A stretch of DNA of 64,000 nucleotides from Rhodospirillaceae bacterium MC!. Lineage in GTDB: Bacteria > Pseudomonadota > Alphaproteobacteria > MC1. The stretch is taken from assembly GCA_002632265.1 (NCBI GenBank), contig NQOV01000002.1:1-64000 (forward strand), written 5' to 3'. Within the stretch, counting starts at the first letter, position 1. The number at the start of each line of letters is the position of its first letter. A program made the position numbers and the translations under genes. The notes below the pieces were generated by a model, which saw nothing but the letters and a program-made list of their open reading frames with translations, was not told where the DNA came from and did no database searches. Positions 23,048 to 60,917 of the stretch are shown here, in pieces.

Positions 23048-23527
23048 ATGAAAATAACAGAACAAGAAATTCAAAATATCGTAGATCCTATATTTGCCAA
23101 CACAGAAGAACGCTATAAAGCATCAGACTTTAAAGTTAAAGGCTTTGACCACGAATTTAACAAAAATACTTTAACAATAACCCTACGCTTCCGATTCGAA
23201 AACTTCAGATTCACAATGGGAATTCCCATGATCGATGACTATGTAGTATTTAGAATCAAAGATAACAACAGCGAAAACCTACTATATTCCGCTGCTGCTA
23301 CCAAATACAGCAACGATCCCGAAAGCTTAGAAGATATCCTAAGACTTAAACTCGACGGTTTCGATCGCCTAATGCAAAATTACGAAGAAAGCGTAGCTAA
23401 AGAATTAGAACTAGAAATCAAAAAACTCAACAAAGAAATCAGAGCCAAAACCGAAATTCTCCAACTCTCAATCGCCAACAAACATCAATTACTTTTATCA
23501 ACAATTAACCTAATTGATTCCGTATAA
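23048..23527 (+). CDS. Hypothetical protein with C-terminal coiled coil
   Basis: A 159-residue protein I do not recognise. The N-terminal ~100 residues look like a mixed alpha/beta domain (TLTITLRFRFENFRFTMGIPMIDDYVVFRIKD); residues ~110-145 form a charged coiled coil (KELELEIKKLNKEIRAKTEIL). There is no signal peptide. The ATG at 23048, with AAAGGAAA 7 bases before it, is preferred over an upstream in-frame TTG. A CtrA-type promoter precedes it and an intrinsic terminator follows, so it is a single-gene unit downstream of flgE; a link to motility or the cell cycle is inference. Confidence 0.7.
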   Translation: MKITEQEIQNIVDPIFANTEERYKASDFKVKGFDHEFNKNTLTITLRFRFENFRFTMGIPMIDDYVVFRIKDNNSENLLYSAAATKYSNDPESLEDILRLKLDGFDRLMQNYEESVAKELELEIKKLNKEIRAKTEILQLSIANKHQLLLSTINLIDSV

Positions 23528-24182: not shown

Positions 24183-25589
24183 TTAATTGCCTTCGATTAT
24201 GGCTTTTATTAGGGTGGCGATTGTAGGGTATGTGCCTTGGTTGAATAGGGGGTCGGTGGAGAAGTTGCTGGCGGAGGTGCCGGAGAAGGCTAGGTTGTTG
24301 TGGACATCGTTGGTGTGGGCGATGTTTTGGAGAGATTTTTGGATACAGAATGAGCGGGGGTCAGGGAGTCTGCCTGTAGATCCACGGGTTGAGTATTTCC
24401 AGTTGGAGAATAGGCAGTGGGATAAACAGCCCATACAGTTGTTTTGATCTGTTTTGATTGACACGGCGGTTTCGGGGGTAACGAAAACCATGGTTTCATC
24501 AGGGGTTGGCATATTGGTTGTAAAGCCTTGATCTTTCCATGTTTGGATTTTTGTTGCGTCATCTGCTGATGTGAAAATTGAGCGATTACGAACGCCTATT
24601 TTTACTTCGGTTGTTAAGCCGTTTTCAGCGTCGGCAGTGCGAGAGAATTTTGCTTGACGTTGTGAGCGTGCTACTAATTCGTTAAGGAAGTCATTTTTAA
24701 GGGCAGAAGAATAAAAGCCTGTAGGGGAAAATTTATGCAACAATATATCGCCTTCTTTGGAATTAAGGAGCATTTGTTTCCATGGGTCAGGGATTTCGCT
24801 TTCGGCGGTTAGCATTGGTCTTGTACCGAATTGAAAGGCGATCTTGCCGACTTTATCATTATCAATGAACTCTTTCCAGTCTCGTAAATACCAAACTTTA
24901 CCAGCCATAATAATTGGAGTATCATCTAAGCCAAAAGAGTTTAGAGTCTCTCTTAGTTCGATAATACGTGGTAAGGGATCTTGTGGTTGATCTGGCAGGT
25001 CTTGGTTACTTAGTCCGTTATGACCGCCTGCATGCCATGGATCTTCATAAACCACACCACCTAGTAGCTCTTTATATTTTTTGTAACTTCTACGCCATAA
25101 AAGTTGAAAAGCTCTTGCAGATGAAACGATTGGATAATACCATAGACCATTTGCCGATGCGACCTTACCCAAATCAAAGGGCATGCCTGCTCCACAGGTA
25201 ACACCGTGGATATACTGTTTAACTTGCGGTAATACTTGCTCTAACATTTCTGGAGTTGCGGCAGCTTCCCATAGCATATTTAAATGGATTCTACCCTTAC
25301 CATTGGAAATCTCAAAGGCTTTTTTTGCTTGGGCGATAATACCGTCGATAGTTTTTTGTCTTATGGTTTCCACACGCTCGGAACGGGTTGTGTCTTTTGA
25401 ATAGTCAGGTGGTGAATAGTTACCGTTTTCATCGTAGCTATCTGGGATAGTCCCTGATATTGTACCAACTGCTCCAGCGGCTGCGAATGCTCCCGAGGTT
25501 GCTCCTGTTGATACGGCAATGCCCTTACCACCTTCAATAATAGGTAGGACTTCCATTCCTGAAATCATCATTGGCTTAATTAAATTCAT
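24183..25589 (-). CDS. Nitronate monooxygenase-like FMN-dependent oxidoreductase
   Basis: The 468-residue protein belongs to the 2-nitropropane dioxygenase/nitronate monooxygenase TIM-barrel family. Seen are the N-terminal PMMISGMEVLPIIEGGKGIAVSTGATSGAFAAAGAVG, the substrate-side HGVTCGAGMP, VVYEDPWHAGGHNG (AGGH motif), PIIMAGKVW, and the FMN-phosphate segment KIAFQFGTRPMLTAES. It is longer than classical enzymes (320-380) and carries a C-terminal cysteine group (NCMGCLSHC) that could bind a metal or Fe-S cluster. The physiological substrate is unknown. The ribosome site is AAGGAA. It lies downstream of pnp on the same strand with an 85-base gap. Confidence 0.78.
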   Translation of the reverse strand: MNLIKPMMISGMEVLPIIEGGKGIAVSTGATSGAFAAAGAVGTISGTIPDSYDENGNYSPPDYSKDTTRSERVETIRQKTIDGIIAQAKKAFEISNGKGRIHLNMLWEAAATPEMLEQVLPQVKQYIHGVTCGAGMPFDLGKVASANGLWYYPIVSSARAFQLLWRRSYKKYKELLGGVVYEDPWHAGGHNGLSNQDLPDQPQDPLPRIIELRETLNSFGLDDTPIIMAGKVWYLRDWKEFIDNDKVGKIAFQFGTRPMLTAESEIPDPWKQMLLNSKEGDILLHKFSPTGFYSSALKNDFLNELVARSQRQAKFSRTADAENGLTTEVKIGVRNRSIFTSADDATKIQTWKDQGFTTNMPTPDETMVFVTPETAVSIKTDQNNCMGCLSHCLFSNWKYSTRGSTGRLPDPRSFCIQKSLQNIAHTNDVHNNLAFSGTSASNFSTDPLFNQGTYPTIATLIKAIIEGN

Positions 25590-25674: not shown

Positions 25675-27978
25675 TTATCTTCTTCCACTTCTTAGGGGAG
25701 CGTTTGGTTCGTCGTTGTTATTGCGATTGTTACGATTATCACGGCGTTTATTATTGTGGTTTCGGTCGTTACGGTCGTTACGATCATGGCGATCATTACG
25801 GTCATTTTTCTTGTATCCGCCACGGTCATCGTCGTTGCGTGGAGGTTTGGGAGGTCTAAGATCTTCCAGTTCTTCGCCTGTATCCTGATCAACCAAACGA
25901 GCTGATAATTTATATTTACCACGATCAGTCCCTAGAAGTTTAACCTTGATTTGTTGCCCTTCTTTTACTACATCGTTGATGTTTTCCACTCGTTCGTTAG
26001 TGAATTCGGAAATGTGGATGAATCCGTCATGTTTACCCATGAAGTTAACAAAAGCACCGACTTCTAGAACTTTAACCACATTCCCACAGTATAACGCTCC
26101 GATTTCTGGATCTTCGGTTAATTCTTTGATCCATTCTATGGCTTCAAGAATAGAGGCTTTATTTAGTGATGAAACCATAACTACGCCGTCATTGGAAATA
26201 TCTACCTTAGAATTGGTTGTTTCTGTGATTTCTTTTATGGTCTTACCGCCTGAACCGATAACATTACCGATTTTTTCTGGCGGGATCTTGATTACTTCAA
26301 TGCGTGGAGCGTTGTCTTTTACTTCTTCACGTGGGCCAGTTAGAGCCTTTTCCATTTCGCCTAGAATGTGTAAGCGACCTGCGTGAGCTTGTTCTAAGGC
26401 TTGTTTCATGATATCTTTTGTTATGGAAGTTATTTTGATATCCATTTGTAAGGATGTAATACCGTCTTTTGTTCCTGCCACTTTGAAATCCATATCGCCC
26501 AAGTGGTCTTCATCGCCCATGATATCGGTAAGAACGCAGAATTCATCGTCTTCTTTAATCAGACCCATGGCAATACCAGCCACTGGTTTTTTTAAGGGTA
26601 CGCCTGCATCCATTAGGGCTAGAGTAGCACCGCATACTGTGGCCATTGAGCTTGAGCCGTTGGATTCGGTGATTTCTGATACTACTCTTAATGTGTATGG
26701 AAAATCTACTTTAGCTGGTAACATAGGATTAATGGCACGCCATGCTAGTTTACCATGACCAATTTCACGACGCCCAGGAGTTCCCATGCGACCGCATTCG
26801 CCGACAGAATAAGGGGGGAAGTTATAATGTAACATGAAACGTTCTCTATATTCTTCGTCCAATCCGTCGACTATTTTTTCATCGCTCCCAGTGCCGAGAG
26901 TGGTGGTTACTAGTGCTTGAGTTTCGCCACGTGTGAACAAGGCACAGCCGTGAGATTGTGGCAATAATGATACTTCACAATCGATAGGGCGAACTGTTTT
27001 AGTATCTCTACCGTCAATACGGATACCGCTTTTTAGTAAATCCTTACGTACGATACTTTTTTCCAGTTCCTTAAGAAGATTCTTAATCATAGATTCGGAA
27101 ATTGGATTCTCTTCATCTTTGATCTCTTGAGCGAATTCGCTGATTACTTCTTTTTTAGCGTCGGCAATAGCGTCTTGGCGTTCAAGTTTGGTTGTGATTT
27201 TGTAAGCATTACGAATGCTATCTGTACCTAATTTAGTAACCTTTTGTCTTGCCACGTCCTTTTCTGGGATCTCATCGGCGATTTTGAAGTCAGGTTTTTT
27301 GCATTCGCTAGCGAAATCATTAATTAAAGTAATAACTTCTTGATAGCTTTCATGGGCGAAGTTTACCGCATCAAGCATGATTGTTTCGTCCAGCTCTGCC
27401 ACTTCGGATTCCACCATAAGAACCCCTTCTTTTGTACCTGCGATCACAAGATCCATAAGAGAGATGTTTTGTTCTTGTTTTGTGGGATTAAGTACGAATT
27501 CTTCATTGATGTAGCCCACACGAACCGCTCCAATTGGTCCTTGGAAAGGCAAGCCTGATATGGCAAGAGCTGTAGATGAGGCTATTAAAGCTAGGATATC
27601 GGGAGAGTTTTTCCCATCATAACTTAAGGTTGTGATTATAATTTGAGTTTCGTTTTTAAAGTTCTCGGGGAATAGTGGGCGGATAGGACGATCTATCAAG
27701 CGTGATGTTAATACTTCGCTATCGTTGGGACGCCCCTCACGTTTTAGGAAACCGCCAGGGATCTTACCTGTAGCATATGCCTTGTCTTGATATTGGACAG
27801 TAAGTGGAAAGAATCCCAATTCGGGATTGGAAGTTTTTTCCGATACTACCGTAGCTAGCAATTTAGTTTCGCCGTAAGTTGCTAATACTGCACCTGTAGC
27901 TTGGCGAGCTATTTTGCCCGTTTCTAGTGTTAGATCTTTACCACCCCAATTGATAGTCTTGGTTGTTATATTAAACAT
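25675..27978 (-). CDS. pnp: Polyribonucleotide nucleotidyltransferase (PNPase)
   Basis: PNPase degrades RNA 3'-5' phosphorolytically and can add 3' tails. The 767-residue protein has both RNase PH-like domains (first with [29 protein letters not shown]; second with [16 protein letters not shown] and [17 protein letters not shown]), the KH domain ([14 protein letters not shown]) and the S1 domain ([25 protein letters not shown]). The last ~50 residues are an Arg/Asn/Asp low-complexity tail ([13 protein letters not shown]...), longer and more repetitive than usual; such tails often bind RNA or partners. Gene order truB-rpsO-pnp is the classic bacterial one. Confidence 0.97.
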
Positions 27979-33051: not shown

Positions 33052-34020
33052 CTAAGATTTCTTAATAGTCTTCATTAATTCTTTAGTTAAGGCTTTGGCT
33101 TTTGCTAGATCGGATTCGGACATATGAGATTCTAAGGTTTTAAGTTTTTTACTTATGTAATTGTCGGGATTATAATTATTGGATAGGGCGATAGAGAACC
33201 AAGCGTAGCCTTTAATTGGATCTTTCTTCACGCCAGCGAGATTAATTGTATATCTAATACCTAAAGAGGTTTGAGATCTTACGTTGCCATTTTTTGCAGA
33301 TTTAAGATTTAAAGATGTAGCTTTTGCTATATCCTTTTTCACGCCCACACCCCACATGTACATATCAGCTAAAAGATATTGAGATAGTGCATTATTTTTA
33401 CTCGCCCATGTGCTTAAACATACGCTTGTATTGGTTTTGCTTGGGCTTGCAGGCTTGATAATTTTTTTAAGAAGTTCGGTTTTTAATTCTTCCCCTTTTG
33501 CCAGTTGATCCTTTGATAGCTGTTGTTTCACTTTATTTAAAAATGTATTAGGCTTACCTTTTACACTAGAAATAGATAACCAAGCATAGCTTTTTACTCT
33601 ATCATCCTCAACTCCAGAGCCTGAATAATACATACTTCCTAGCATAAGCTCCGCATACTTATTGCCCTGAAAAGCAGATTTCTCAAACCATTTGAAAGCT
33701 TGAGTTCGATCTCTAGTTACCCCTTCCCCACTAAAATAACGCCCTCCCAAATTAAATTGAGCCGTAATACTACCATTATTCGCTGATTTAGTGTACCACA
33801 TTATGGCCTTATTCATATCCTTATGCAGTCCGCCTGCGTAGATATTCCCTAAAGTTATTTGAGCTTGTGAATCCTTTTGATCGGCTAAAGCTTGTAAACC
33901 CATAGTTACATTAGCTTGATTCTCACAAGCACTTACAAGCTTTTAATCAATATTATTTGAATTACAAGCCATAATTGGTAATAATAATATACATGATAAG
34001 CCGATACTAATTTTCTTCAT
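33052..34020 (-). pseudogene. Sel1-repeat lipoprotein gene with an in-frame stop at codon 26
   Basis: From the ATG at 34020, preceded by GGAGAA, the frame reads a lipoprotein signal MKKISIGLSCILLLPIMAC, then NSNNID and a TAA (33943-33945). The same frame then continues without interruption through KLVSACENQANVTMG into a 283-residue Sel1-repeat region ending at 33052 (repeats such as AQFNLGGRYFSGEGVTRDRTQAFKWFEKSA). The signal peptide and the body therefore belong to one gene broken by a single nonsense codon. A shortened product from the ATG at 33903 would lack the lipobox and stay in the cytoplasm. An intact paralogue lies at 40337-41389. A sequencing error or stop readthrough cannot be excluded. 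Confidence 0.8.
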
Positions 34021-35064: not shown

Positions 35065-36144
35065 CTACTTTTTGCCGTTGTACTTATCAAACATAGACCA
35101 TACGCCTGCGTCGCCGTGCCATTCGCCTTCGGTGGCTACTTTGGAATATTCGGTTGAGCGTTGTTCGAAGAAGTTGGCGTGTTCTACGCCGTTTAGGATT
35201 TCGGTTAGCCATGGGATTGGGTGGGGTTTGATTTGTTCGTAGGTGTTATGATCTTGCTTGAAGTATCCGTATTTGATTGGGAGTTGCAATTGGGTTAAAC
35301 GCCAATCGGCTATGTAGTGGATATATGCTTTGATTTCGTCAGGTGTCATCCCTGGTACGTCGCCCATTTCGAAAGCTAATTCGATGAATTTTTCTTCGAG
35401 TTTTACTTGGGTGTCGCATACATCCATGATGTCATCTTTTACCGATTGGGTTAAAGCCCCTGTTTCTTTGTTCCATTCGTGGAATAATTTAATGATACAT
35501 TCACAATGTAAAGATTCATCACGCACGGACCAAGTTACGATTTGCCCCATGCCTTTCATTTTATTTTGACGTGGGAAATTCATTAACATGGCAAAGCTGG
35601 CATATAAAGAAAGACCCTCGGTGAATCCGCCGAACATGGCAAGAGTTCTTGAAACATCCGAGCAGGTGTTCATATTGAACTCTCTCATATATGAAACCTT
35701 ATTACTCATTTCCGAGTATTCTCTAAAGGCTAGGAATTCATGATCAGGCAAGCCTAAAGTTGTTAAAAGTAGGGCGTAAGCGTCGATGTGAATGGTTTCT
35801 ACGTTGGTAAAGGCACTTAACATCATACGAACTTCAAGCGGTTGAAAAACTTTCATATAACGATTGATATAGTTTTCGCCCACTTCGATATCCGATTGAG
35901 TAAACAGGCGGAAGATCTGCATTAAGAGATTGCGTTCATTGTCCGATAGCTTATCGCCATTCCAATCCTTAAGATCTTCACTCAAGGGAACTTCTTCGCC
36001 TAGCCAGTGGATTCGCTGTTGATATTTCCACGCCTCATAGGCCCACGGATAACGATTAACCACATACGCCCCCGCACTATCTAGCAAGCCGATTTTATCT
36101 TTACCTATGAAATCAAGCGGATTATTTTTACCATAGTTAAGCAT
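35065..36144 (-). CDS. nrdB: Ribonucleoside-diphosphate reductase beta subunit (class I)
   Basis: The 359-residue subunit carries the diiron-tyrosyl radical site. Visible are the helices with metal ligands (SDIEVG, FTNVETIHIDAYALLL, SVRDESLHCECIIKLFHEW) and the C-terminal region ending DKYNGKK. Together with NrdA it makes deoxyribonucleotides under aerobic conditions. It lies 87 bases after nrdA with a hairpin fragment between. The ribosome site AAGGAA is good. The 3' 150 bases are strongly C-rich on the coding strand. Confidence 0.95.
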   Translation of the reverse strand: MLNYGKNNPLDFIGKDKIGLLDSAGAYVVNRYPWAYEAWKYQQRIHWLGEEVPLSEDLKDWNGDKLSDNERNLLMQIFRLFTQSDIEVGENYINRYMKVFQPLEVRMMLSAFTNVETIHIDAYALLLTTLGLPDHEFLAFREYSEMSNKVSYMREFNMNTCSDVSRTLAMFGGFTEGLSLYASFAMLMNFPRQNKMKGMGQIVTWSVRDESLHCECIIKLFHEWNKETGALTQSVKDDIMDVCDTQVKLEEKFIELAFEMGDVPGMTPDEIKAYIHYIADWRLTQLQLPIKYGYFKQDHNTYEQIKPHPIPWLTEILNGVEHANFFEQRSTEYSKVATEGEWHGDAGVWSMFDKYNGKK

Positions 36145-38516: not shown

Positions 38517-39878
38517 ATGAACAAAAAGGTTATTATTACATCTGTAGCTATTATCATTTTTGCTATTGTAATTTATGGTCTATTGAAAACGCCGAGCATT
38601 CCTTATTATGTGGAAACCGCCATTCAACATATTTTAAGAGATAATTCTGTCTTTCCTGCTGATATCATTACTGGACACGTGAAAGAAGACGAAAATGAAA
38701 TCTATAAGCATGTAACTAAAACAGCTGACGAAAATACCATTGATCTTTCAACTATGAATCTTCAACAGCCTGACAATGATGAAACCTTAGAAGTGCTTTC
38801 ATTTGACACTCTAAAACGCAATAAGTCAACTCTTCCGCCTGTGGTGATTGATGAAGAAACAAGCAAAAAGCTTGCCTTGGAAAATAAAAAGGATATCATC
38901 GGCGATATTAGTGAACGTGAAATACGCAACCACAAAACAAAAAGATACAGAAGAACACATCGCACCATAATACAACCGCCAATCCCTTCAGCAGATAACA
39001 GCAAGCCACAGGCAGGTACTTCGCAAGCAGGTACACAACAAGCAGGTACTCCACAGGCTAGCACGCAACAGGCAAGAACTCTGCAAGATATCAAGCAAGA
39101 AAATAAAAATATTCTAGCTCTGCCAAGTATTCCCACAAATACGCAGGCGACAAACACTCAAGCAACAAAAATCAAACCTATCGCCATACTCATCGATAGC
39201 ATGGGCGAAAATGCGACGATGACAAAGCAAATTATAGACATGAAATATAATCTAAATTTAAGCTTTATCCCTTATACTTCTCATGTGAAGTATCAAGTGG
39301 AATACGCAAGAAAAAGACACAAAACCATTGTAGTACAAATGCCAATGCAACCTAATAATCCTAAAATCAAACTCGATCCCCACGCCCTACTTACAAGCGA
39401 TTCCCACGCTATCCTAATGAAAAAAATCAAATGGAATTTATCTCAATTCGCAGGATACACCGCCGTTACTACCTATATGGGGAGTAGCTTTGTGAAAAAT
39501 GAAAGCGGTTTGAACGTTTTAATGGACGAAATAAAAAGAAAAAACCTTAATTTCATCGACGCACTTACTATAGTGAATTCCAAAGCCTACCAAATCGCCA
39601 TACAACACAAAATCCCAACCCTAAAACGTAATATATTCATAAACAACAACCACTCCTACGCCCAAACCCTAAAAGACTTCAACAAAATAACAACCATGAC
39701 AAATAAATACGGCTACACCATGGCTATAATCCACCCCAGCCCCACAACCATAAAAGCCCTAAAAACATGGCTTAAAACCACCAACAACCAACAATACAAA
39801 CTCGTAACAATCAAACAACTCATAAACCACATATACAACGTCCACCCTAGCCACATATCTAAAGTCATCCTTAAATAA
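38517..39878 (+). CDS. Divergent polysaccharide deacetylase family protein (YibQ-like)
   Basis: The 453-residue protein has an N-terminal membrane anchor (KKVIITSVAIIIFAIVIYGLLK), a long linker with a 5-residue repeat (QAGTS/QAGTQ/QAGTP), and a C-terminal NodB-like barrel: PIAILIDSMGENATMTKQIIDMKYNLNLSFIPY, VVQMPMQPNNP, GYTAVTTYMGSSF, NLNFIDALT and YGYTMAIIHPSPTTIKALKTWL. This matches the divergent deacetylase family (DUF610), often encoded near division and envelope genes. Catalytic activity is uncertain for the family. The 3' end is an extreme case of C-ending codons: in the last 55 codons I count 28 ending in C and 5 in T, against 5 and 20 in the first 40. Confidence 0.8.
   Translation: MNKKVIITSVAIIIFAIVIYGLLKTPSIPYYVETAIQHILRDNSVFPADIITGHVKEDENEIYKHVTKTADENTIDLSTMNLQQPDNDETLEVLSFDTLKRNKSTLPPVVIDEETSKKLALENKKDIIGDISEREIRNHKTKRYRRTHRTIIQPPIPSADNSKPQAGTSQAGTQQAGTPQASTQQARTLQDIKQENKNILALPSIPTNTQATNTQATKIKPIAILIDSMGENATMTKQIIDMKYNLNLSFIPYTSHVKYQVEYARKRHKTIVVQMPMQPNNPKIKLDPHALLTSDSHAILMKKIKWNLSQFAGYTAVTTYMGSSFVKNESGLNVLMDEIKRKNLNFIDALTIVNSKAYQIAIQHKIPTLKRNIFINNNHSYAQTLKDFNKITTMTNKYGYTMAIIHPSPTTIKALKTWLKTTNNQQYKLVTIKQLINHIYNVHPSHISKVILK
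39009..39083 (+). repeat. 15-bp tandem repeat in the deacetylase linker
   Basis: Five in-frame units of CAGGCAGGTACTTCG and variants encode QAGTS-like pentapeptides. The later copies are diverged. Confidence 0.8.
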
Positions 39879-39923
39879 TGGGGAGATATCTCGCCGATAA
39901 GCGTTTGGCATTTGCTCTTTTTG

Positions 39924-40090
39924 GTTGGATATCTTGACAGACGGTCGCACTTTTTAGTTGGATATCTTGACAGACGGTCGTCCTATTCTGGCGGAAGTCT
40001 TGACAGACGGTCGCTCTACCCGAGCAGGAGTCTTGCTATACGGGCCGAACATAGCGATGTTGTACAAAGTTTGTTCGATCACAAGTTAGG
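39924..40090 (+). repeat. 3'-end repeat element, copy 3 (four 33-mers and core)
   Basis: It begins 46 bases after the deacetylase stop, in the same direction. CTTGACAGACGGTCG recurs three times at 33-nt spacing, then a diverged fourth unit, then the core TGTACAAAGTTTGTTCGATC. Each unit can form a hairpin GTCT-TGAC-AGAC and a second one; here the second is GCTC-TACCC-GAGC (40013-40025). No spacer-like unique sequences are present, so it is not a CRISPR array. Confidence 0.8.
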
Positions 40091-40336: not shown

Positions 40337-41389
40337 TTAACGTAATAAGGTTTTGCTTAGTTTTATTGCTTTTTTTATGTCGGCACGGGACATACGTTTT
40401 TTTAGAGTTTTTAGAGGGCTATCTGACTGGTAGTCGTCTTTTTGGGCTAGTGTTTCCCAAGCATATGCCTCTATGTCATGATCTTTGGATTTACCCGTAT
40501 AGATACTGGCAATATTATGTTGAGCAGTTGTATTGCCTAGTTCTGCTGATCTTTTAAACCAATACAGGGCTTTTTTAAGATCTTTTTTTACTCCCTTTCC
40601 AGAAAAATAGAAGAAACCTATAAGATTTTGAGATGGTGAATCACTTTGTAACGCTGATTTTTTTAACCAGTAAAATGCTTGTGTATAGTCCTGTTTTACC
40701 CCTTGCCCATTTTTATATAAAAGACCTAATTGATATTGAGCATTTACATCCCCTTGTTTTGCCGATAGAAGCCACCATTTAAAGGTTTGTTTATTATCTT
40801 TTTTGAAAGTGTCGCCATCATTATACATAACACCTATATTATATTGGGCTTCTTCATTACCTGATTTTGCAGATTTAAGAAATAATTCTTTGGCTTTATT
40901 ATGATCTTTTTTTACGTAATAACCATGGTAATACATTTCCCCTAAATAAGTTTGTGCATCTACATTGCCTTGTTTTACTGCTTTTGTGAACCACTTGAGT
41001 GCATATTTGTTTCGTGTTTTATCGTCGTATTTATCGAAAGGTTCTTCATTTCTGTAATATATTTCACCAAGTTCGGATTGAGCCTTATCGTATCCTAAAT
41101 TGGCAGATTTAGCTAAAATTTCGCTATATTTTTTACGATCTAGTCTGAATGGCCCTTTATGCTCTTGATAACCATCTTTATAGATTTGACTTATAATGTA
41201 TAGGGCGTGAGCATTATGATCAAGAGAGAACTTGTCTATACATTCATTGCTTTTTGGATTCTGTTTATTTTGCATACAGTTTAACAACTTAGCTTTCAAT
41301 TTTGTTTCTGCTTTTTCATTGGTTTTTAAGTTTCCACAACCCATAAGAGCTAATAATAATATGCTTGATGTTATGATGATTTTTCGCAT
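40337..41389 (-). CDS. Sel1-repeat lipoprotein
   Basis: A 350-residue protein with a lipoprotein signal peptide (RKIIITSSILLLALMGC; lipobox LMGC, lipidated Cys at 18) and about seven Sel1/TPR-like repeats (for example AQTYLGEMYYHGYYVKKDHNKAKELFLKSAKSGNEEAQYNIGVMY). Sel1 proteins act as scaffolds for protein interactions; the lipobox places it in the envelope. It is the intact paralogue of the broken gene at 33052-34020, sharing the C-terminal YAW....L....M S...D..KA.. pattern. Confidence 0.88.
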   Translation of the reverse strand: MRKIIITSSILLLALMGCGNLKTNEKAETKLKAKLLNCMQNKQNPKSNECIDKFSLDHNAHALYIISQIYKDGYQEHKGPFRLDRKKYSEILAKSANLGYDKAQSELGEIYYRNEEPFDKYDDKTRNKYALKWFTKAVKQGNVDAQTYLGEMYYHGYYVKKDHNKAKELFLKSAKSGNEEAQYNIGVMYNDGDTFKKDNKQTFKWWLLSAKQGDVNAQYQLGLLYKNGQGVKQDYTQAFYWLKKSALQSDSPSQNLIGFFYFSGKGVKKDLKKALYWFKRSAELGNTTAQHNIASIYTGKSKDHDIEAYAWETLAQKDDYQSDSPLKTLKKRMSRADIKKAIKLSKTLLR

Positions 41390-41484: not shown

Positions 41485-42462
41485 TTATTTCTTTTTATAC
41501 CTAAACTTATGTTCGTGTTTTATGTGGTGGTTGCGGTGGCGGAGTTCTTTGCCTGTGGCGGTTTGGATGCCGATTTTGCCCATGTATTCGCCGATGAATG
41601 TGGTTTTGGCGTTACCTATTTTGTACATGGGAGCGTTAAGACCTGTGATTTTTTGGTTGGTGGCGGTTAGTTTTTGTAGGCGGGCTTTTTCTGATTGTAC
41701 GTCGAGAATATATTCGGTTGGGGTAACTTTAAGAAGACCCATATTATATAGTACGTATTTATTCTTTTTATTGTCGATTGGTTGGGATTCGAGATCGAGT
41801 AATCTAAAGAATTTCAGACGGTTAGCCGTATTAGTAGTGATGTGTAGATTCAAGAGATCTTTGGTATATGATTTTGTATCTTCATCATAGAGAATATAAT
41901 TAGCAAAGTTATTGATAAAATTTCTATTGGAAATTTCAGTTGTATTGATCTCATCTAAAATGGATGCGGTGGTCGTGAATTTAGTAGTATCTAACCTTAC
42001 ATTAAAGGCTCTTTGTGCTCTTGCGGTTGGTCGTCTTACCTTGTTGGAAAATAAGGTAAGATCATCGAATAATATTTCATCTTCTTGAGTGGAATTTTCA
42101 TTAATTAAGGAATTATCTTGAGAGTTAGGATCGAGATTTTTCTTATTTAGATAGACGATTTTTTCAGGTTCTAAATTATCTTGCATATTTTGAGATTGAT
42201 CCAACAAAATAGCTTGCACTACTTTTTGTTGGATTTCATTTAATTGTAATAAGTAGTTATTTTTCACATTAGGTTTTAGAATTCCTTTGTTAATATCGGG
42301 AATTTTCAAGCCTGTATGCTTATATGTTTCATAGGCATTTGGAGCATTAACCCCGCCTGTGAAGTTTGCCAGTAAAGTTTTATTGTTGGCACTATTACAA
42401 GCACTTAGCATACTGATAACTGCCAGTAAAAATAGAATTTTTAAAGATATAATTTTAAACAT
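41485..42462 (-). CDS. Lipoprotein, DUF3035/BamF-like
   Basis: A 325-residue protein with a signal peptide ending in the lipobox LSAC (FLLAVISMLSACNSANN). Shortly after comes NAPNAYETYKHTGLKIPDINKGILKPN, which resembles the DUF3035 start (P.EF.V..R.PL.IPP...LP.P). In alphaproteobacteria a DUF3035 gene, proposed as BamF of the outer-membrane protein assembly complex, follows ileS-lspA, exactly as here. The remaining ~250 residues are polar, with a basic end. The assignment rests on context plus a weak motif match. Confidence 0.5.
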   Translation of the reverse strand: MFKIISLKILFLLAVISMLSACNSANNKTLLANFTGGVNAPNAYETYKHTGLKIPDINKGILKPNVKNNYLLQLNEIQQKVVQAILLDQSQNMQDNLEPEKIVYLNKKNLDPNSQDNSLINENSTQEDEILFDDLTLFSNKVRRPTARAQRAFNVRLDTTKFTTTASILDEINTTEISNRNFINNFANYILYDEDTKSYTKDLLNLHITTNTANRLKFFRLLDLESQPIDNKKNKYVLYNMGLLKVTPTEYILDVQSEKARLQKLTATNQKITGLNAPMYKIGNAKTTFIGEYMGKIGIQTATGKELRHRNHHIKHEHKFRYKKK

Positions 42463-45874: not shown

Positions 45875-46287
45875 GATACTTCCATTGAATTTAATGTGAT
45901 ATACAAATAATTAGGGCAATCCTAACACATAAATACAAGCTGGTCAATGATATTATTTTTTATCTTGATTTTTTTTCTTTTCTTCCCCTTGACTAATGAA
46001 AATAAAATTGCTAAAATAAGAAAACTAAGGTAAATAAGAACACTATATATGGCAATAAAGGTCATTGCTCTATTGATCTGTGATTGCTATAGTCCGAAGT
46101 TGGGGAAAATAAATTGGGAATATACTCAAGTAATAATTAAGAAGAATTGTTAAGGGTGGGTAAAATAACTTAAAAATATGTGCTTGTAATTATAATAGTA
46201 TGTCAACGCAAATGCTTACATGAATCTCGCTTACAAGCACATATTAGTTCTTTTTTACATTCCTTAAACAAGAGAAAAAGATTCATT
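45875..46287. other. Divergent region between ileS and the beta-propeller lipoprotein gene
   Basis: It contains a promoter TTGACT (45989-45994), 17 nt, TAAAAT (46012-46017) toward the lipoprotein gene, and a 15-bp perfect inverted repeat AATATGTGCTTGTAA (46175-46189 with 46231-46245). The region 46149-46268 around this repeat looks like a degenerate copy of the long hairpin family (AAGGGTGGGTAAA facing TTTACATTCCTTA). The leader before the ATG is about 260 nt. Confidence 0.55.
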
Positions 46288-47769
46288 ATGAGAAAATATA
46301 CAAAACTATCATTAATCACGATTTTATCAATTAGTCTTTTAGCGAGCTGTTCACAAAAAGATAATAATAACACTAATAAGCAAGATAACAATAATAATAC
46401 TTCTGAAAAATCCACTGCCAAGCAAGTGGATTATTTTGCTACAAATGGGGTAGGAAATCCAGTTGCCTTAGTGCAAAGTCCGTCAGGATTGTACGATAAA
46501 AAGAAAAATATAACTTATGTGGCGTATCAAGGATACTTAGAAGATCCTTATGTTGTTTCTTATAATCACAATACGAAAAAATGGAAAGGGCCTTATAAAG
46601 CAGGCTTTAGCGAATTGGGAAAGGACACCGAACATTCGCCGTCAGGTAGACAAACAGATAATCACGGTAAACCAGCCATAATCCAAGATAACGCAGGATA
46701 CTTCCATATTTTCTTCGGTGGCCACGGCGGAGCGGAAAGACTCGGCAAGAATCCCCTAGGTAATACCCATGATGGTCGTAATAAACATGTGATGACAGTC
46801 AAACCCTATGACATATCAAAATGGGTAGAAGTAAATAACATTTCGCCCTTTGGCAGTTATAATCAAGTGATAAAAATGGATAATGGCGATATTTATTTAT
46901 TCTATCGTCATGGGGCCCATAGAAGTAATTGGGTATATCAAAAATCCACCGATAACGGTAGACATTTCGGCAAAGAAGTTTCATACTTAAAGACTTTAAC
47001 AAGAACCGATCTCAAAGCCCATGACAGTTGGTATTCGTGGGCTACTAAAGGGAAAAATGGAAATATTATAGTTGGCTATGATTATCATTTATGTTGGAAC
47101 GGCAATGCCAATAATGGGCGTGGTCATACTACCGAACGCCATAATGTTTACTATATGAGCTTAAACACTAAAACAGGTAAATGGACTAACATCAAAGGGC
47201 AAACCCTAAAAATGCCACTTACCAGAACAGACGCCAATAAGCAAACCCTAGTTTATGACACTAAAAAACTATGGACGTTTAACGGATCTGTTCATCTAGA
47301 TGATAAGGGATATCCTGAAATCGCTATGAATATCGGTAAAGATCTAGGTAAAAAAACAGGCGGACCCAAACAAACCGTATTTTTCCGTTATAACGGAACA
47401 AAATGGCTAAAAGGTGGAATCGTCAATCCCCAAGCTCGCACAGATAATCTGACAACTCGTGGCGACTTCTTCCACAATAAACAAGGCGGAATCACTTTTG
47501 CCCTAAGCTATAAGGAAAAAAATAAAGACGGCGTAATAGCCTACTTCAATTCCAAAGATAAGGGACAAACTTTCCAAAAGGGTAAAGAGCTCTTCCGCCA
47601 CAAACATGCAGGATATTCAATATCTGCTTTAATCCAAAACCCCAACCCCAACGCCAGATTCATAATCGCCGAACGCAAATCAGGCAAAACCCCAGTACAC
47701 GTCTATCTCATCGGCGACCACGGCCCCATAACACGCCCCACCGCCGATTTTAAATCTCTTAAAAAATAA
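46288..47769 (+). CDS. Surface lipoprotein with BNR-type beta-propeller, possible polysaccharide lyase
   Basis: A 493-residue protein. The start at 46288 gives a lipoprotein signal MRKYTKLSLITILSISLLASC (lipobox LASC); an upstream in-frame extension would mask it and runs through the inverted repeat. After an Asn/Thr-rich linker comes one domain of ~440 residues resembling the BNR-repeat family PF15892: THYVAYQG-type start (NITYVAYQGYLEDPYVVSYNH), KPAIIQDNAGYFHIFFGGHGG, and the Asp-box-like STDNGRHFG and SKDKGQTFQKG. Polysaccharide lyases PL24/PL25 (ulvan lyases) share this fold. The kduI-kduD operon in the window metabolises the product such lyases make. Enzymatic function is inference. Confidence 0.65.
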   Translation: MRKYTKLSLITILSISLLASCSQKDNNNTNKQDNNNNTSEKSTAKQVDYFATNGVGNPVALVQSPSGLYDKKKNITYVAYQGYLEDPYVVSYNHNTKKWKGPYKAGFSELGKDTEHSPSGRQTDNHGKPAIIQDNAGYFHIFFGGHGGAERLGKNPLGNTHDGRNKHVMTVKPYDISKWVEVNNISPFGSYNQVIKMDNGDIYLFYRHGAHRSNWVYQKSTDNGRHFGKEVSYLKTLTRTDLKAHDSWYSWATKGKNGNIIVGYDYHLCWNGNANNGRGHTTERHNVYYMSLNTKTGKWTNIKGQTLKMPLTRTDANKQTLVYDTKKLWTFNGSVHLDDKGYPEIAMNIGKDLGKKTGGPKQTVFFRYNGTKWLKGGIVNPQARTDNLTTRGDFFHNKQGGITFALSYKEKNKDGVIAYFNSKDKGQTFQKGKELFRHKHAGYSISALIQNPNPNARFIIAERKSGKTPVHVYLIGDHGPITRPTADFKSLKK

Positions 47770-48197: not shown

Positions 48198-49499
48198 ATG
48201 AACCCAATCAAAAAGCTAACTCTTGGACTACTAATAACTACTAGTTTTTTCGCTCTAAATGATTCGGCCTACGCTAGCGTGGCCGGATCAAATACGGCTC
48301 ATGTTTCCATAACCAACAATATGGATTTCTCACAGCTAACCCCTGAACAACTGGCAAATATAACCAATGCAGATCTATTAAAGTTAACACCTGAACAGTT
48401 ACAAGCGTATATGAACGCTTTACACCACGCCATAAGCAGAACCCCCACTTTAAAAGCAAGATTACAACCTAAACTAGACCAAGCCAAGGAAGTATCACGC
48501 CTACACACAAGCACAAGCACAAGCACCCACACACGAAGAACAACAAGCACAATCTCACATGTGGCAACAAGTCATAATAGCATTAGCCATAGTAGCGTTA
48601 ACCATACTTCAACTTCAACCGCTAGCAAATCGCATAATACACAAGTAGCAAATGACTTATCCAATAATAAAGCACAGGCACAAGCCAAAACTCTTTCAAG
48701 ATATGATAAAGCAATAGCTAAGGCTCAAACATCAGAATATGATAAAAAAATGGATGCCTTAGCACTTTGTATGGATAATGGGGTATGGAATGCACTTTAT
48801 GAAGCAACTCTCAAAACTTCTACAGATTTTACAATCGATCAAGTAGTGTCTTTAATTCCTGAAGATCATATCAATGAATTAGAAAAAGAACTTGCAGTAA
48901 GCTATTTACAGAATCAATTAATTAAAATAGCAAAACCTAATGGCAAAATTGACTTAACCTCTTTAAAAGAACTTTACAATAAAGTTGAGAATTTAATAGA
49001 CCAAGCCGACGAGTTTAGAGAGAGTACTTCTGGGGATTACTTGAAAGTCTTTCTTGATAATGTGGATGAAGACACACTAAATATATATTATACCGCCAAT
49101 GGCATAACCGCAGATAGTGGCAAACAGCCGACGCCTGCGGGATATGTGGAAGTGGTTAAAGTGCCTGTTGCTAAAGCTCATAATGTATCATCAAGCCCAG
49201 TTAAGAAACATTATGTTTCTTATGGCGGAAGTTCTACAAGTCATCATCGTAAAAAAGTTAGTATGAATCATAGTCATTACAGTCATGATGATCATAGGAA
49301 TCGCCATAATCATACATCGCATGTTAAAAAGACATCTTCACATACAAGCTATAATTATAAACCATATGCACATACTCATGTGAAGAAACATAAAGCGGTA
49401 TCGCATACACATACGCATATTAATGTAATTCATACCTTAAGCATTCATCAACACATGAAAAAGCATAAGGCGAAACATTCGGCGAAATCTCGCAAATAG
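48198..49499 (+). CDS. Secreted protein with His-rich C-terminal region
   Basis: A 433-residue protein with a signal peptide (NPIKKLTLGLLITTSFFALNDSAYA). Two LTPEQL motifs follow (FSQLTPEQLANI, LKLTPEQLQAYM), then a Ser/Thr/His-rich linker, a helical domain (~residues 165-320) without recognisable family, and about 100 residues very rich in His, Ser and Lys (HSHYSHDDHRNRHNHTSHVKK). The His clusters could bind metal ions; this is inference. The ribosome site AAAGGAAAA is good. The gene is flanked by inverted copies of the 3'-end repeat element (47804-48025 and 49611-49858). Confidence 0.72.
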   Translation: MNPIKKLTLGLLITTSFFALNDSAYASVAGSNTAHVSITNNMDFSQLTPEQLANITNADLLKLTPEQLQAYMNALHHAISRTPTLKARLQPKLDQAKEVSRLHTSTSTSTHTRRTTSTISHVATSHNSISHSSVNHTSTSTASKSHNTQVANDLSNNKAQAQAKTLSRYDKAIAKAQTSEYDKKMDALALCMDNGVWNALYEATLKTSTDFTIDQVVSLIPEDHINELEKELAVSYLQNQLIKIAKPNGKIDLTSLKELYNKVENLIDQADEFRESTSGDYLKVFLDNVDEDTLNIYYTANGITADSGKQPTPAGYVEVVKVPVAKAHNVSSSPVKKHYVSYGGSSTSHHRKKVSMNHSHYSHDDHRNRHNHTSHVKKTSSHTSYNYKPYAHTHVKKHKAVSHTHTHINVIHTLSIHQHMKKHKAKHSAKSRK

Positions 49500-49561: not shown

Positions 49562-49598
49562 GATAAGATCATGAAGTAACATTCATGATCTTATTTTT
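49562..49598 (+). terminator. Intrinsic terminator after the His-rich protein gene
   Basis: ATAAGATCATGAA pairs with TTCATGATCTTAT around a 7-nt loop, followed by T residues, about 65 bases after the stop. Confidence 0.85.
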
Positions 49599-49878: not shown

Positions 49879-52449
49879 TTAAGAAGACAAAGCAGTTTTT
49901 ATAGTTTGGCTTAGTTTTTTGGAATTAAAGGGTTTTGGTAGGAATATGACGTTGTTACGATTTGCCAGTTCGGGGGGGACGCTGTCTTCGGAGAAGCCTG
50001 AAATTATAATAATAGGTAGATCTGGGTTCATGGTATTTAGGTTTTGCGATAGGGTGAATCCGTCCATTTCTGGCATGGTTACATCGGTAAGGACTACATC
50101 TGGAGTGAAACCCTCTTTTATTTTTTCTAGGGCGTCGACGCCGTTAATTGCCTCGACAACGTTGTAGCCTAAGCGACTAAGATTGATACAACAAGCGGTT
50201 CTTAGGGAATCGTCATCATCGACGAATAGGACTTTTTCGTTACCTGTGAGATCAGCACCTTTTTTAGTTTTGATCTTTTGTTCGTCGGATGTGCGTATTA
50301 ATTGTTCTTCTTCGCTTTCGATGTAAGCAGGGAAGAAGACCTTAAATTCTGTAAACTTATCGATCTCGCTTGTTACTGTAATATAGCTTTTACCCTCTTG
50401 AACGATGGCTAGAACTGTAGATAATCCCAAGCCTGTCCCCTTAGCTTGCCCACGGTTTTTAGTACTAAAATACGGCTCGAAGATACGTTCTTGGACTTCT
50501 TTTGTCATCCCTGTTCCGTGATCTCGCACACTTAAGAGAACATAATTTCCCTTAGGAACTACCACATTATTATAGTTTGTATCATATTCCACGGTCATAT
50601 TACGGATGTCGATGATGATATCGCCATGGCGGTCGCTTTCGTTTATGGCGTCTCGAGCGTTTACCGTTAGATTCAAAAGAATTTGCGAGATTTTTGATTC
50701 GTCAAAGCGGATGTTATAAAGTGCCATACGGCTATCTTTTAGCTTGATATCAATGGCACGCCCTACGGTGGCCACACCTTGAAGAAGTTTCCAGTTATTA
50801 TTTATAACGTTCTTGATATTAATAACCTTAGGGTTATTCCCTGCGGATTTAGTAAAGCTAAGCAATTGAAAAACAAGATTGGTAGCTTGAATGGATGTTT
50901 GTTCTATGGCTTTTAAATATTGATATGATTGATCACTCTCTAAGATATACGCTCCTGCAGCGTCGCAACTTTGAATTATGGTAGCAAGCATATTATTAAA
51001 ATCATGGGCAATACCGCCCACAAGCAAGCCGACAGATTGCTCTTTGCTTTCCCTATCTAGCTGGCGGATCATTTCTGTTTGTTTTGTGATATCGGTAGCA
51101 AAAAGATATATACACTTTTCTCTTGTACGTTCCATACTGCGGTAATCATCGCCACGAACGGCAATGAAAGAGACCATTTTTTCATCGGTACGAGTGGTAA
51201 TTTTAGCCTCAAAGGTAACCCTAACTTCATTGGATTTCTCAAATAGATTTAGCTTTTCTTCTATCATCTCATGATATTCAGGCTTAATACGATGATTCAA
51301 ATGATAAGAACTTACATCTATTTGACGAACGCCATATAAATTTAAATAGGCAGTATTACATTCTATAACCTTACCGTCTTTAGATAATAGAGCCATACCA
51401 AAGGGCGAATTTCCGTAGATAGGTTCAGGGATAACCGCCTTTTCAATGGTAGTAGTGGCATGTATGGGCGAATTAAATGAGGCTTGCTGATTGGAAATAT
51501 TTACTGTCTTTACACTTTCTTGCGTACGTAACAATACGCTTTCCTTATCCTTTAGAATCAGACCGTACGCCATTTCATTTTCATTATCTACTCTAGTGGC
51601 GATGTAGGCTTTAAATCTTTCGCCAACGCTGGGAATTAATTCGGCTATGGTTTCATAACTATCAGTTAAGCCGAAATTATAATGTTCAAATCCTGCGATG
51701 ATTTTTGTGAGATCCAGCCCTCGCCCACTGTTGGGATAATCTCTCATTCCTAGCCATTCCAGTAAGGTTTCATTGGCAAAAAGAATTTCCCCATGACTAT
51801 AAGCAACATAGTATCCTGCGGGATTCTGGTTTAAGAACTTATTGCGGATGTCTTCTCGTTTTTTACGAGTATTTTCTAAAATGCGTATGTGAGTGATATC
51901 TTCTATTTTCCATAAACGATACTTATGATTTTTGCTGGTAGATATCTTATACCACAATTGGGTATTATTTACCAAGACAGGAATTTCAATATAATGATTA
52001 ATACCGTCGCTTATATAGGATCTTAAGGCCTCAAATTGTTGGAAAGCGTCCCTATCTTTAATGATGTGAAAGAAACTTGAGATTTCCAATAAATCGCCCT
52101 CTTGGATATTAAGAAGAGTTTTAGTGTTATCGGTAAAATATACGATCTCTTCTTCTGCTTTGGCAATTATCCACCCCTCATAGACGTTATTTAAGGCCTT
52201 TAACATATACTGATTAAAGGGCGACAAATATTTACTACGTGCTAAAGTAAAGCTAAATATCGATAAGGAAAAAATAGCAATCATCCCACATATGGCACTA
52301 GGGATATAGGCAAGATCCTTAGGCACTTTATGGGAAAATATCACAACTAATATGGCTATTATGCTTAATAGTACACAAGCTAACCATAGTTTATAATTTA
52401 AATAAAAAGATATTTTATTTATGTCATCTACGCTTTTTTGCTTACTCAT
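49879..52449 (-). CDS. cckA: CckA-type hybrid sensor histidine kinase
   Basis: The 856-residue protein has two N-terminal membrane segments (LWLACVLLSIIAILVVIFSH; IPSAICGMIAIFSLSIFSF), PAS-like domains (around LKALNNVYEGWIIAKAEEEIVYF and GMALLSKDGKVIECNTAYLNLYG), the HisKA phospho-acceptor in GGIAHDFNNMLATI, an HATPase domain (NLTVNARDAI, VRDHGTGM, KGTGLGLSTVLAIV) and a C-terminal receiver domain (VLFVDDDDSLR, phospho-Asp in VVLTDVTMPEMDG). This order and the HDFNN box are those of CckA, which feeds phosphate through ChpT to CtrA. The receiver is covalently attached, as in CckA. Phased CtrA-type boxes occur in this window. Confidence 0.88.
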   Translation of the reverse strand: MSKQKSVDDINKISFYLNYKLWLACVLLSIIAILVVIFSHKVPKDLAYIPSAICGMIAIFSLSIFSFTLARSKYLSPFNQYMLKALNNVYEGWIIAKAEEEIVYFTDNTKTLLNIQEGDLLEISSFFHIIKDRDAFQQFEALRSYISDGINHYIEIPVLVNNTQLWYKISTSKNHKYRLWKIEDITHIRILENTRKKREDIRNKFLNQNPAGYYVAYSHGEILFANETLLEWLGMRDYPNSGRGLDLTKIIAGFEHYNFGLTDSYETIAELIPSVGERFKAYIATRVDNENEMAYGLILKDKESVLLRTQESVKTVNISNQQASFNSPIHATTTIEKAVIPEPIYGNSPFGMALLSKDGKVIECNTAYLNLYGVRQIDVSSYHLNHRIKPEYHEMIEEKLNLFEKSNEVRVTFEAKITTRTDEKMVSFIAVRGDDYRSMERTREKCIYLFATDITKQTEMIRQLDRESKEQSVGLLVGGIAHDFNNMLATIIQSCDAAGAYILESDQSYQYLKAIEQTSIQATNLVFQLLSFTKSAGNNPKVINIKNVINNNWKLLQGVATVGRAIDIKLKDSRMALYNIRFDESKISQILLNLTVNARDAINESDRHGDIIIDIRNMTVEYDTNYNNVVVPKGNYVLLSVRDHGTGMTKEVQERIFEPYFSTKNRGQAKGTGLGLSTVLAIVQEGKSYITVTSEIDKFTEFKVFFPAYIESEEEQLIRTSDEQKIKTKKGADLTGNEKVLFVDDDDSLRTACCINLSRLGYNVVEAINGVDALEKIKEGFTPDVVLTDVTMPEMDGFTLSQNLNTMNPDLPIIIISGFSEDSVPPELANRNNVIFLPKPFNSKKLSQTIKTALSS

Positions 52450-53052: not shown

Positions 53053-55518
53053 ATGTTATATAAGAATATGTTACCATATAGTAAGAATAAGGAATTAAGT
53101 ATCTTAAGAATACTTTTTTATATTCTTATGACTTTTATAATTGTGGGAATATCACACAAAGCCATAGCCAATCCTAGCATAAAGACAACACAGACAGCAA
53201 ACACTACCGTAAATACTACAGCAAATACTAAAGAGAATCCGCAAAAGCCCGCTCCGTCATCCACTGGTACGATACATGCGGATCATGTGCAGTATGGCAA
53301 GACTAAAGGCTCAATCATCGCTACAGGGAATGTTAAGCTCATCTATCAAAATGTCGAGCTGGATGCCGATAGAGTGGTATGGGATAAGGCGAATAATAAA
53401 ATAGAAGCCCATGGAAATGTTATGCTCATTAAAGATAATAACATCATGAAATCTAAAAATATCCATATGTCCGTAGATTTCCAACATGCGATTATGGATG
53501 CCATGACCGCTAAACTTGAAAACAATAGCTATATTACCGCTAAAAAAACCACTCGAGTGGCAGGCAAATCCATTGAGTTTGATTCGCCTGTATATACTCT
53601 ATGCCGTCCCGATCCGAAAAAAACCACACAATGTCCTATTTGGCGTTTACGTGCTAGCTCTGGTATGCAGGATCAAACGGATAAAAGTTACAGCTTTTAT
53701 AATCCTAGAATCGAACTCTTTGGCGTGCCAGTCGTATATTTTCCCTATATCTATGTGGACGGCGAAATCCAACGAGAAACAGGATTCTTAACACCATCTT
53801 TAGGAAGTACATCTTCCATTGGTCAGTATGTTACTTTGCCATTTTATTGGGATATATCCAACGACAAAGATTTTACGGTTTTACCTTCTAAATATATAAC
53901 CAATTCGCAATTTTTCACTCAAGCAGTATATAGGCAACATCTAGGAAATGGCTTATTTACCTTAAGCGGTAGTATCACAAAACCCGCCAACTATAAAAAG
54001 GGCGGTTTAGATGAAACCAATCCTTGGCGTTGGGATATTAACGGTTCACTTAAGTATAACATCAATGACAAATGGCGTATGGGTGCTAATCTTATGCTTG
54101 TTTCTGATGATACTTTCTTAACGGTATACGGTTTAAATTCAGGCGTTTACAGTACTATTTTTCTACCGTCGAAAATCTATATGGAACGCTTGGACGAACA
54201 TTCATATTTAAAAACTCAACTTACATACTTCCGAGATATCCGCAACGAATACACAAGAACAGATAGTGCCTACTTACTCGGTAAAACCAACTATATCATC
54301 AAAACCGAACCCGATAAAAATGACGTATATTACACCATAGATACAGGCTACACCATGGTTAAACGTAGGGATAAGATCTCAACTTATCGCTTACATGCGT
54401 CTTTAAATTTGAATAAATCCGTAATTTCCTCGTGGGGAACTCGCTTGGACGGTAATATCTCTTTAACAGGTATCGGCTATCATGAGGGCTTGGAAGATAT
54501 CAACTACAATCCACAAGATACCAAACTAGATACGCTTTTATTCACTCCTACCGCAAGTTTAAAAGTATCACATCCCTTAGTAAGACCATTGGGAGAGAAA
54601 AATGATATTGTGGAAATTCTAGAACCTATAGTTAATTTAAAGCTCGGCTTAAATCATAGTATCGGTAGCGATAATCCCAATGAAGATAGTCAATCCCAAG
54701 AGCTAGACAATACCAACATATTCAGAGATAACCGCTTTTCAGGTATCGACCGTATAGAAAATGGTACACGTGTGGATTACGGCTTTAACTGGGGATTCTT
54801 TTTCCCCAACGGAAGATATCTTCAATCCTTTATCGGACAAAGTTATCGTTTTAATAAGATCTCAAAATACTCCGCAGGATCAGGCTTGGATAACCGCAGA
54901 TCCGATTATGTGGGAAGTTTGGAAATTGTACCATCGGATTATTTATCCTTACGCTATCAATATCGCATTGATTCCAAAAGTCTATTATTTCACAGAAGTG
55001 AAGGCTCAATTTCAGTGGGCCCGAGTTTCCTACGCTTAAGTGCCGATTACATTAAATACGATATCGTCCAATCCGATCCCGTTACCAATGAACTATATCG
55101 CCAATTAAGTGAATCAGTGAAAGGAAGTCTAGACATCCACGTCTTTGATCATTGGCGATCATACACCACCGCCGACTTCACCATTAATCCCACAACATCA
55201 TACCTAATAGGTACACAACAAGCCGACCAAACCGCCTACAAAAATAAACTAACAAAAATCACAGAAACCATTTCCTATAACGACGAATGTTTCGACCTAT
55301 CTCTAGGAATTACACGAACATATTACAGCGATAGAGATATTAAACCAGAAACATCAATCCTTGTCCTAATCCAACTAAAATCCCTAGGCTCAATCAACTT
55401 CAATAGAGTCCTTGCTGGCGGAACAAACGACAACTCCGAACCAGAACCCGATAACGACGACAACAACAACTCCAACAACAACGACAGTATCTTCCCTTTC
55501 ACCGATACATTCTTTTAA
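53053..55518 (+). CDS. lptD: LPS-assembly outer-membrane protein LptD
   Basis: The 821-residue protein inserts lipopolysaccharide into the outer leaflet together with LptE. After a signal peptide (ILRILFYILMTFIIVGISHKAIA) and a Thr/Asn-rich linker comes the OstA/LptA-like beta-jellyroll (GTIHADHVQYGKTKGSIIATGNVKLIYQNVELDADRV), the cysteine pair CRPDPKKTTQC, and the LptD barrel (PRIELFGVPVVYFPYIYVDGEIQRETGFLTPSLG). The C terminus after the last strands is an Asp/Asn low-complexity stretch ending FTDTFF. No clear ribosome site decides the start; a second ATG lies five codons on. It converges with the HAD gene. Confidence 0.93.
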   Translation: MLYKNMLPYSKNKELSILRILFYILMTFIIVGISHKAIANPSIKTTQTANTTVNTTANTKENPQKPAPSSTGTIHADHVQYGKTKGSIIATGNVKLIYQNVELDADRVVWDKANNKIEAHGNVMLIKDNNIMKSKNIHMSVDFQHAIMDAMTAKLENNSYITAKKTTRVAGKSIEFDSPVYTLCRPDPKKTTQCPIWRLRASSGMQDQTDKSYSFYNPRIELFGVPVVYFPYIYVDGEIQRETGFLTPSLGSTSSIGQYVTLPFYWDISNDKDFTVLPSKYITNSQFFTQAVYRQHLGNGLFTLSGSITKPANYKKGGLDETNPWRWDINGSLKYNINDKWRMGANLMLVSDDTFLTVYGLNSGVYSTIFLPSKIYMERLDEHSYLKTQLTYFRDIRNEYTRTDSAYLLGKTNYIIKTEPDKNDVYYTIDTGYTMVKRRDKISTYRLHASLNLNKSVISSWGTRLDGNISLTGIGYHEGLEDINYNPQDTKLDTLLFTPTASLKVSHPLVRPLGEKNDIVEILEPIVNLKLGLNHSIGSDNPNEDSQSQELDNTNIFRDNRFSGIDRIENGTRVDYGFNWGFFFPNGRYLQSFIGQSYRFNKISKYSAGSGLDNRRSDYVGSLEIVPSDYLSLRYQYRIDSKSLLFHRSEGSISVGPSFLRLSADYIKYDIVQSDPVTNELYRQLSESVKGSLDIHVFDHWRSYTTADFTINPTTSYLIGTQQADQTAYKNKLTKITETISYNDECFDLSLGITRTYYSDRDIKPETSILVLIQLKSLGSINFNRVLAGGTNDNSEPEPDNDDNNNSNNNDSIFPFTDTFF

Positions 55519-60901: not shown

Positions 60902-60917
60902 ACGGAGAAATTTTCCC

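Follow-up and report, generated by a model that had tools for sequence, protein, structure and literature searches.

What makes a gene change its synonymous codon preference as it nears its stop codon? The question is raised by the polysaccharide deacetylase gene at 38517-39878, in which codons 1-40 include 5 NNC and 20 NNT codons, as opposed to 28 NNC and 5 NNT in the final 55. These counts, made by hand in the earlier note, proved exact on recount, and within-gene permutation of synonymous codons gave an expectation of 16.2 ± 2.6 C-ending codons for the final 55 (p=0.0005). Per 100 nt, the final 350 nt (39529-39878) contain 27-36% C, 4-9% G and about 46% A. Immediately 3' of the stop codon, this excess of C over G flips. 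Directly downstream, the plus strand is G>C (39879-40078); because of this, the facing Sel1-repeat gene (40337-41389, minus strand) has its C>G stretch past its own stop and not in its coding end. It encodes one of two Sel1-repeat proteins in the window, the other being encoded at 33052-33903, and a DUF2608 phosphatase-like gene is located at 55628-56509.

The window is the whole 64,000-nucleotide stretch analysed, which forms the start of contig 1 in a 2.05 Mb alphaproteobacterial genome (19 contigs, 35.5% GC). Among 384 other genomes of the class, none of which belongs to the same order, the closest isoleucyl-tRNA synthetase is 55% identical. The permutation test was also significant for the kduD-like SDR gene (5343-6107), uvrD (6275-8881; 31 NNC and 1 NNT in its final 55 codons), a nitronate-monooxygenase-type flavoprotein gene (24183-25589), nrdB (35065-36144), the genes at 41485-42462 and 46180-47769, lptD (53053-55518), the M24 peptidase gene (58356-60179) and sdaA (60861-62129). 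For the FtsB and DUF3572 genes, the switch is visible when gene halves are compared. The genes listed as switching in the earlier note were upheld in this way, except for pnp (25675-27978), which lacks the pattern by the same test (p=0.11); rpoH (13503-14423), described there as lacking the switch, indeed lacks it (p=0.19). Moreover, ileS, lspA, pgi, the gene at 48198-49499 and many further genes of the window are without the pattern, which is, therefore, a property of a subset of genes. The pattern occurs on both strands, as that note had observed, and an effect of the replication strand was rejected on this basis.

Blocks of altered codon choice were detected using a two-state codon model and scored by their log-likelihood ratio (LLR). 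Those in the window, together with one contrasting element, are the following:

39363-39878 (core 39529-39878), plus strand: 3'-terminal block of the polysaccharide deacetylase gene 38517-39878, rich in C and poor in G through synonymous choice (LLR 45.5; Pfam PF04748).
6275-7210, minus strand: block at the 3' end of uvrD (6275-8881), the strongest in the window (LLR 71.6; PF00580/PF13361).
24183-24854, minus strand: 3'-terminal block of the nitronate-monooxygenase-type flavoprotein gene 24183-25589 (LLR 49.0; predicted hairpin, -10.7; PF03060).
55027-55518, plus strand: block at the 3' end of lptD (53053-55518; LLR 41.9; PF04453).
35065-35442, minus strand: block at the 3' end of nrdB (35065-36144; LLR 33.6; PF00268).
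23096-23527, plus strand: block over most of the 161-aa gene 23042-23527 (LLR 27.7; predicted hairpin, -11.7).
41485-41799, minus strand: block at the 3' end of 41485-42462 (LLR 26.9).
59712-60179, plus strand: 3'-terminal block of the M24 peptidase gene 58356-60179 (LLR 26.4; PF00557).
47344-47769, plus strand: block at the 3' end of 46180-47769 (LLR 25.8).
49879-50340, minus strand: 3'-terminal block of the hybrid sensor kinase gene 49879-52449 (LLR 24.2; permutation of the last 55 codons not significant, p=0.12).
61980-62129, plus strand: weaker 3'-terminal block of sdaA (60861-62129; LLR 14.5; predicted hairpin, -10.6).
5913-6107, plus strand: weaker 3'-terminal block of the SDR/kduD-like gene 5343-6107 (LLR 12.7; strong predicted hairpin, -14.6).
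49562-49595, plus strand: contrasting element, a hairpin resembling an intrinsic terminator after 48198-49499, a gene with a C-poor end (5 NNC and 22 NNT in the last 55 codons).

Downstream of nrdB, a same-strand ORF whose start codon is uncertain begins at a distance of 50 nt.

Beyond the window, 1.264 Mb (62% of the genome) was sampled in stretches. A simple, purpose-written codon-usage caller retrieved 963 genes, 887 of which were classed by their downstream neighbour, with transcription units assigned from gene orientation and gaps. In genes with a convergent neighbour (n=212), NNC/(NNC+NNT) is 0.34 at a distance of 150-200 codons upstream of the stop and rises to 0.60 close to it, and G3/(A3+G3) drops in parallel, from 0.28 to 0.17. 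Where a co-directional gene follows after a gap of >200 nt, the rise towards the stop is from 0.34 to 0.48 (n=187), and for gaps of <40 nt the profile is nearly flat, from 0.35 to 0.40 (n=183). At the gene level, the mean rise in C is 0.196 for convergent genes (n=199) versus 0.045 for those with gaps of <40 nt (n=176; p=2e-14), a contrast kept for pairs in which both genes are well supported (0.206 versus 0.054) and seen on either strand. Hence, the genome-wide profile is not flat and the gradient inside operons is not equal to that at unit ends, these being the two outcomes that the earlier note had named against its reading. The difference C-G per 100 nt is about -1 in gene bodies and reaches a maximum of +7.9 immediately ahead of the stop of convergent genes; the C>G signal sits at the presumed ends of units, as defined by orientation and gaps, and is rare inside operons. 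A comparison of paralogues with one convergent and one operon copy was uninformative with 17 usable pairs (0.47 versus 0.39, p=0.58), and promoter-like motifs in the gaps after C-rich ends showed no clear link.

The pattern is an end-anchored block rather than a smooth slope. At LLR>12, 199 local blocks were found; in 159 of them, the end lies no more than 15 codons from the stop, and in 8 the beginning lies close to the gene start. End-anchored blocks with LLR>8 are present in 51% of convergent genes, 26% of those before gaps of >200 nt and 9% of operon-internal genes, the last figure being equal to the shuffled background (9%); with LLR>15, the corresponding values are 34, 18 and 4%, versus 6% in shuffles. 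Blocks have a median length of 91 codons in convergent genes, as opposed to 138 where a wide co-directional gap follows, and they span roughly the final 70-150 codons, that is, about 270-400 nt of C-rich, G-poor RNA that terminates at or soon after the stop codon. An apparently sharp step at the 5' boundary of the blocks was discounted as evidence, because the boundary position is picked by the fit.

Which bases are preferred within the blocks? In convergent genes, each of the 15 NNY amino-acid groups is shifted, as opposed to hardly any in operon-internal ones. For Leu, CTR/(CTR+TTR) increases from 0.25 to 0.51 in convergent genes versus 0.26 to 0.31 in operon-internal genes. Arg codons change from AGR to CGR at gene ends, an A-to-C transversion (CGR:AGR OR 2.0, p=9e-5; operon-internal OR 1.09, not significant), and Lys, Glu and Gln codons in the same 3' regions lose G (G→A). 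As Leu (TTR→CTR) and Arg (AGR→CGR) codons take part in the shift, C itself is favoured over G, T and A, a preference that fits neither wobble or tRNA choice nor neutral mutation. A wobble or tRNA explanation was rejected given the position-1 shifts at Leu and Arg and the dependence on context. More broadly, translational selection, by which the near-stop codons of unit-terminal genes would be tuned to tRNAs, speed or release, agrees with the fact that the change in codon usage ends at the stop codon, but it is contradicted by the context dependence, as the pattern follows the downstream neighbour and not the gene itself. It would also have to act at codon position 1 as well as position 3 and to produce the G→A shift in Lys, Glu and Gln codons, and we regard it as very improbable.

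The earlier note had named a mutational gradient as the alternative to its reading. Transcription-associated mutation without selection would proceed by deamination of the template strand, yielding changes that read as T→C and G→A in the coding strand, for example through antisense read-through between convergent genes. The main changes observed are exactly those predicted from deamination of template A and C, and convergent genes show the strongest effect. However, a neutral process should ignore the stop codon, and the composition changes there: fourfold sites in strong blocks contain C at 0.51-0.53 and G at 0.01-0.02, versus 0.19-0.25 and 0.14-0.19, respectively, in the first 120 nt past the stop of strong-block genes. 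In addition, the Arg AGR→CGR change requires A→C transversions, sense transcription should normally outweigh antisense read-through, and units whose next co-directional gene is far away also show the pattern. The change at the stop codon and the Arg transversion, in particular, make a mutational origin quite unlikely.

We consider it fairly likely that rut-like C>G elements lie where transcription units end and that the C-ending codons are their trace in the coding sequence. Judging from sequence features, Rho is probably the reader of these blocks. Once the last ribosome leaves the stop codon, the C-rich coding end would become bare RNA behind RNA polymerase; Rho, together with NusG, could load on this bare C-rich RNA, move 5'→3' and release the polymerase just downstream of the stop, before the facing gene is entered. 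A loading site within the ORF would keep 3' UTRs short, and intrinsic hairpins would fill the same role in other parts of the genome. The Rho gene, at C8:16260-17516, is intact (421 aa, 662 bits to TIGR00767), with an end-to-end match to E. coli Rho structures and a conserved RNA-binding motif, DGFGFLR, so that an active protein is predicted, and NusG is present (192 bits).

Several features of known Rho-dependent terminators are found in the blocks. Prediction of rut sites by RhoTermPredict is based on C>G across 78 nt and regularly spaced C residues (PMC6407284), and the blocks are C-rich and G-poor (C>G) over at least about 78 nt, in accordance with the C>G part of this rule. In Bacillus subtilis, C exceeds G over long stretches (>150 nt) in Rho-terminated fragments, and synonymous recoding alone made a gene into a Rho terminator (PMC13323073); the blocks also fit this feature of >150 nt with high C relative to G. 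The spacing of C residues, assessed by autocorrelation, revealed nothing beyond the 3-nt codon period and no 11-13 nt spacing. The Rho protein of E. coli prefers YC dinucleotides, for which no preference was observed here (observed/expected ratio of 1.05 in gene bodies and 1.07 at ends).

Terminators made up of a hairpin and a U-tract are located after about one in four unit ends. A comparison of genes with and without strong blocks showed an inverse relationship: at LLR>25, a hairpin follows 8 of 61 block genes versus 88 of the 280 genes lacking a block (OR 0.33, p=0.004), and before co-directional gaps of ≥400 nt, at LLR>15, 1 of 22 versus 18 of 43 (OR 0.07, p=0.001). Splitting convergent genes by intrinsic terminator, as the earlier note had proposed, left their mean rise in C unchanged, at 0.196 with and 0.204 without a hairpin. 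Across eight contigs, block and hairpin frequencies are inversely ranked (rho -0.83), and stratification by contig weakens the relationship (Mantel-Haenszel ORs of 0.43-0.63, p=0.07-0.24). Strong blocks and intrinsic hairpins tend toward mutual avoidance, which is partly, perhaps largely, regional. About 41% of presumed unit ends carry neither a block nor a hairpin.

The style of termination differs strongly between regions of similar GC content, with C18 and C1 on one side and C19, C13 and C10 on the other: blocks and hairpins mark 57 and 5% of unit ends, respectively, in the block-rich, hairpin-poor contig C18, and 9 and 39% in C19, where the opposite holds. Such a split would allow two termination modes to be compared inside one genome. 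Contig C18 also contains an open frame of about 1,866 codons with long tandem repeats (units of 78/156/234 nt and 105 nt; C18:55960-61563, minus strand), whose repeat region is followed in frame by a ferrochelatase domain and has an A/C-rich codon style as in the blocks.

The retention of the C rise in convergent genes with hairpins bears on another explanation, namely selection for an unstructured (A/C-rich) or protein-bound mRNA 3' end, for instance for stability, 3' processing or the avoidance of duplexes between convergent transcripts. It is in line with this explanation, as are the A+C content of about 78% in the deacetylase block and the weaker predicted folding at gene ends. Yet the folding change is about equal in operon-internal genes and is, thus, not specific to context, C beats even A at Arg (AGR→CGR), and the block lies upstream of the stop, within the path of the ribosome. 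Selection for unstructured RNA in its pure form is weakened by the first two of these observations, and the explanation as a whole is unlikely.

The reading in terms of Rho faces an objection of its own, since ribosomes should hinder its loading on translated RNA. The known case of Rho targeting driven by composition is that of runaway transcription, and genomes with runaway transcription are expected to have the stems of intrinsic terminators close to the stop codon. In the present genome, intrinsic stems start at a median of 35 nt past the stop, with 12% within 12 nt, and U-tracts begin at a median of about 64-72 nt versus about 38 nt in E. coli using the same pipeline. Gene bodies do not avoid C>G, as windows with C-G≥15 make up 1.32% in the observed sequence versus 1.02% after synonymous randomization. 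On both counts, runaway transcription is unsupported. The purine content of the bodies, expected to be high in such genomes, is 52.8%, versus 50.9% in an E. coli sample. The lack of C>G avoidance in bodies fits loading after ribosome release better than targeting of untranslated RNA by composition alone, although neither this lack nor the stem distance proves the involvement of Rho. The suggestion of built-in Rho sites in the earlier note is supported in part: it is favoured by a C>G, G-poor composition limited to unit ends, by the tendency of strong blocks to lack hairpins and by the canonical Rho gene, and the absence of a YC preference and the partly regional nature of the trade-off count against it.

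The comparative survey covered proteobacteria, and the pattern was lacking in E. coli and in about 100 other proteobacterial loci or genomes. Using the same pipeline, no comparable gradient was found in E. coli K-12 (250 kb) or in seven low-GC alphaproteobacteria (40-100 kb each). The unit-end shift averages 0.03 log-odds in 130 pieces from other proteobacteria versus 0.65 in 60 pieces of the present genome, and when T→C and G→A are combined, 2 of the 130 exceed the median of the latter (AUC 0.94). A signal in one 20-kb piece of a relative (G030) was gone once 100 kb was examined. None of the papers covered by our literature search describes synonymous C-rich recoding at unit-terminal coding ends; a preprint on codon composition in oral bacteria reportedly may suggest a similar connection of 3' codons with termination. 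The C-rich coding-end blocks may be a variant on the known theme of Rho terminators, and we do not claim that they are unique to this lineage.

Among known systems, the rut sites of E. coli and Salmonella (Alifano-type C>G elements; RhoTermPredict, PMC6407284) resemble the blocks in that >78 nt of C>G, G-poor RNA is located at the unit end, upstream of the presumed release zone, and Rho and NusG are present here as for the Rho-dependent terminators of those species. In contrast to those sites, the element described here lies inside the translated part of the last gene and is built through synonymous codons, is 270-400 nt long and is not enriched in YC dimers or 11-13 nt spacing, with termination itself being presumed. 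Rho targeting in B. subtilis (PMC13323073; rut map, PMC12350095) is likewise defined by long stretches of C over G, but coding strands avoid the signal in that species, whereas unit-terminal coding ends gain it here, gene bodies lack avoidance and hairpins are not near the stops. As with the intragenic (latent) Rho sites responsible for polarity, Rho would load on RNA within an ORF when ribosomes are absent; those sites are scattered inside genes, whereas the blocks are anchored to unit-terminal stops and largely absent elsewhere.

The usual explanations of codon usage are tRNAs, translation or mutation. In this genome, codon usage varies with the gene that follows and contains a signal in base composition of the type that Rho reads. 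We tentatively propose, as a possibility that we rate just short of even, that, in this lineage of Alphaproteobacteria, a large proportion of units may be ended by Rho signals coded by composition in the last 70-150 codons of the final gene; these would constitute a second message, read when translation ends, with synonymous choice marking the unit boundary. If so, the sequence alone would suffice to recognize unit ends in this lineage, synonymous sites would be under strong selection from termination, and the use of just-translated RNA by Rho would become testable.
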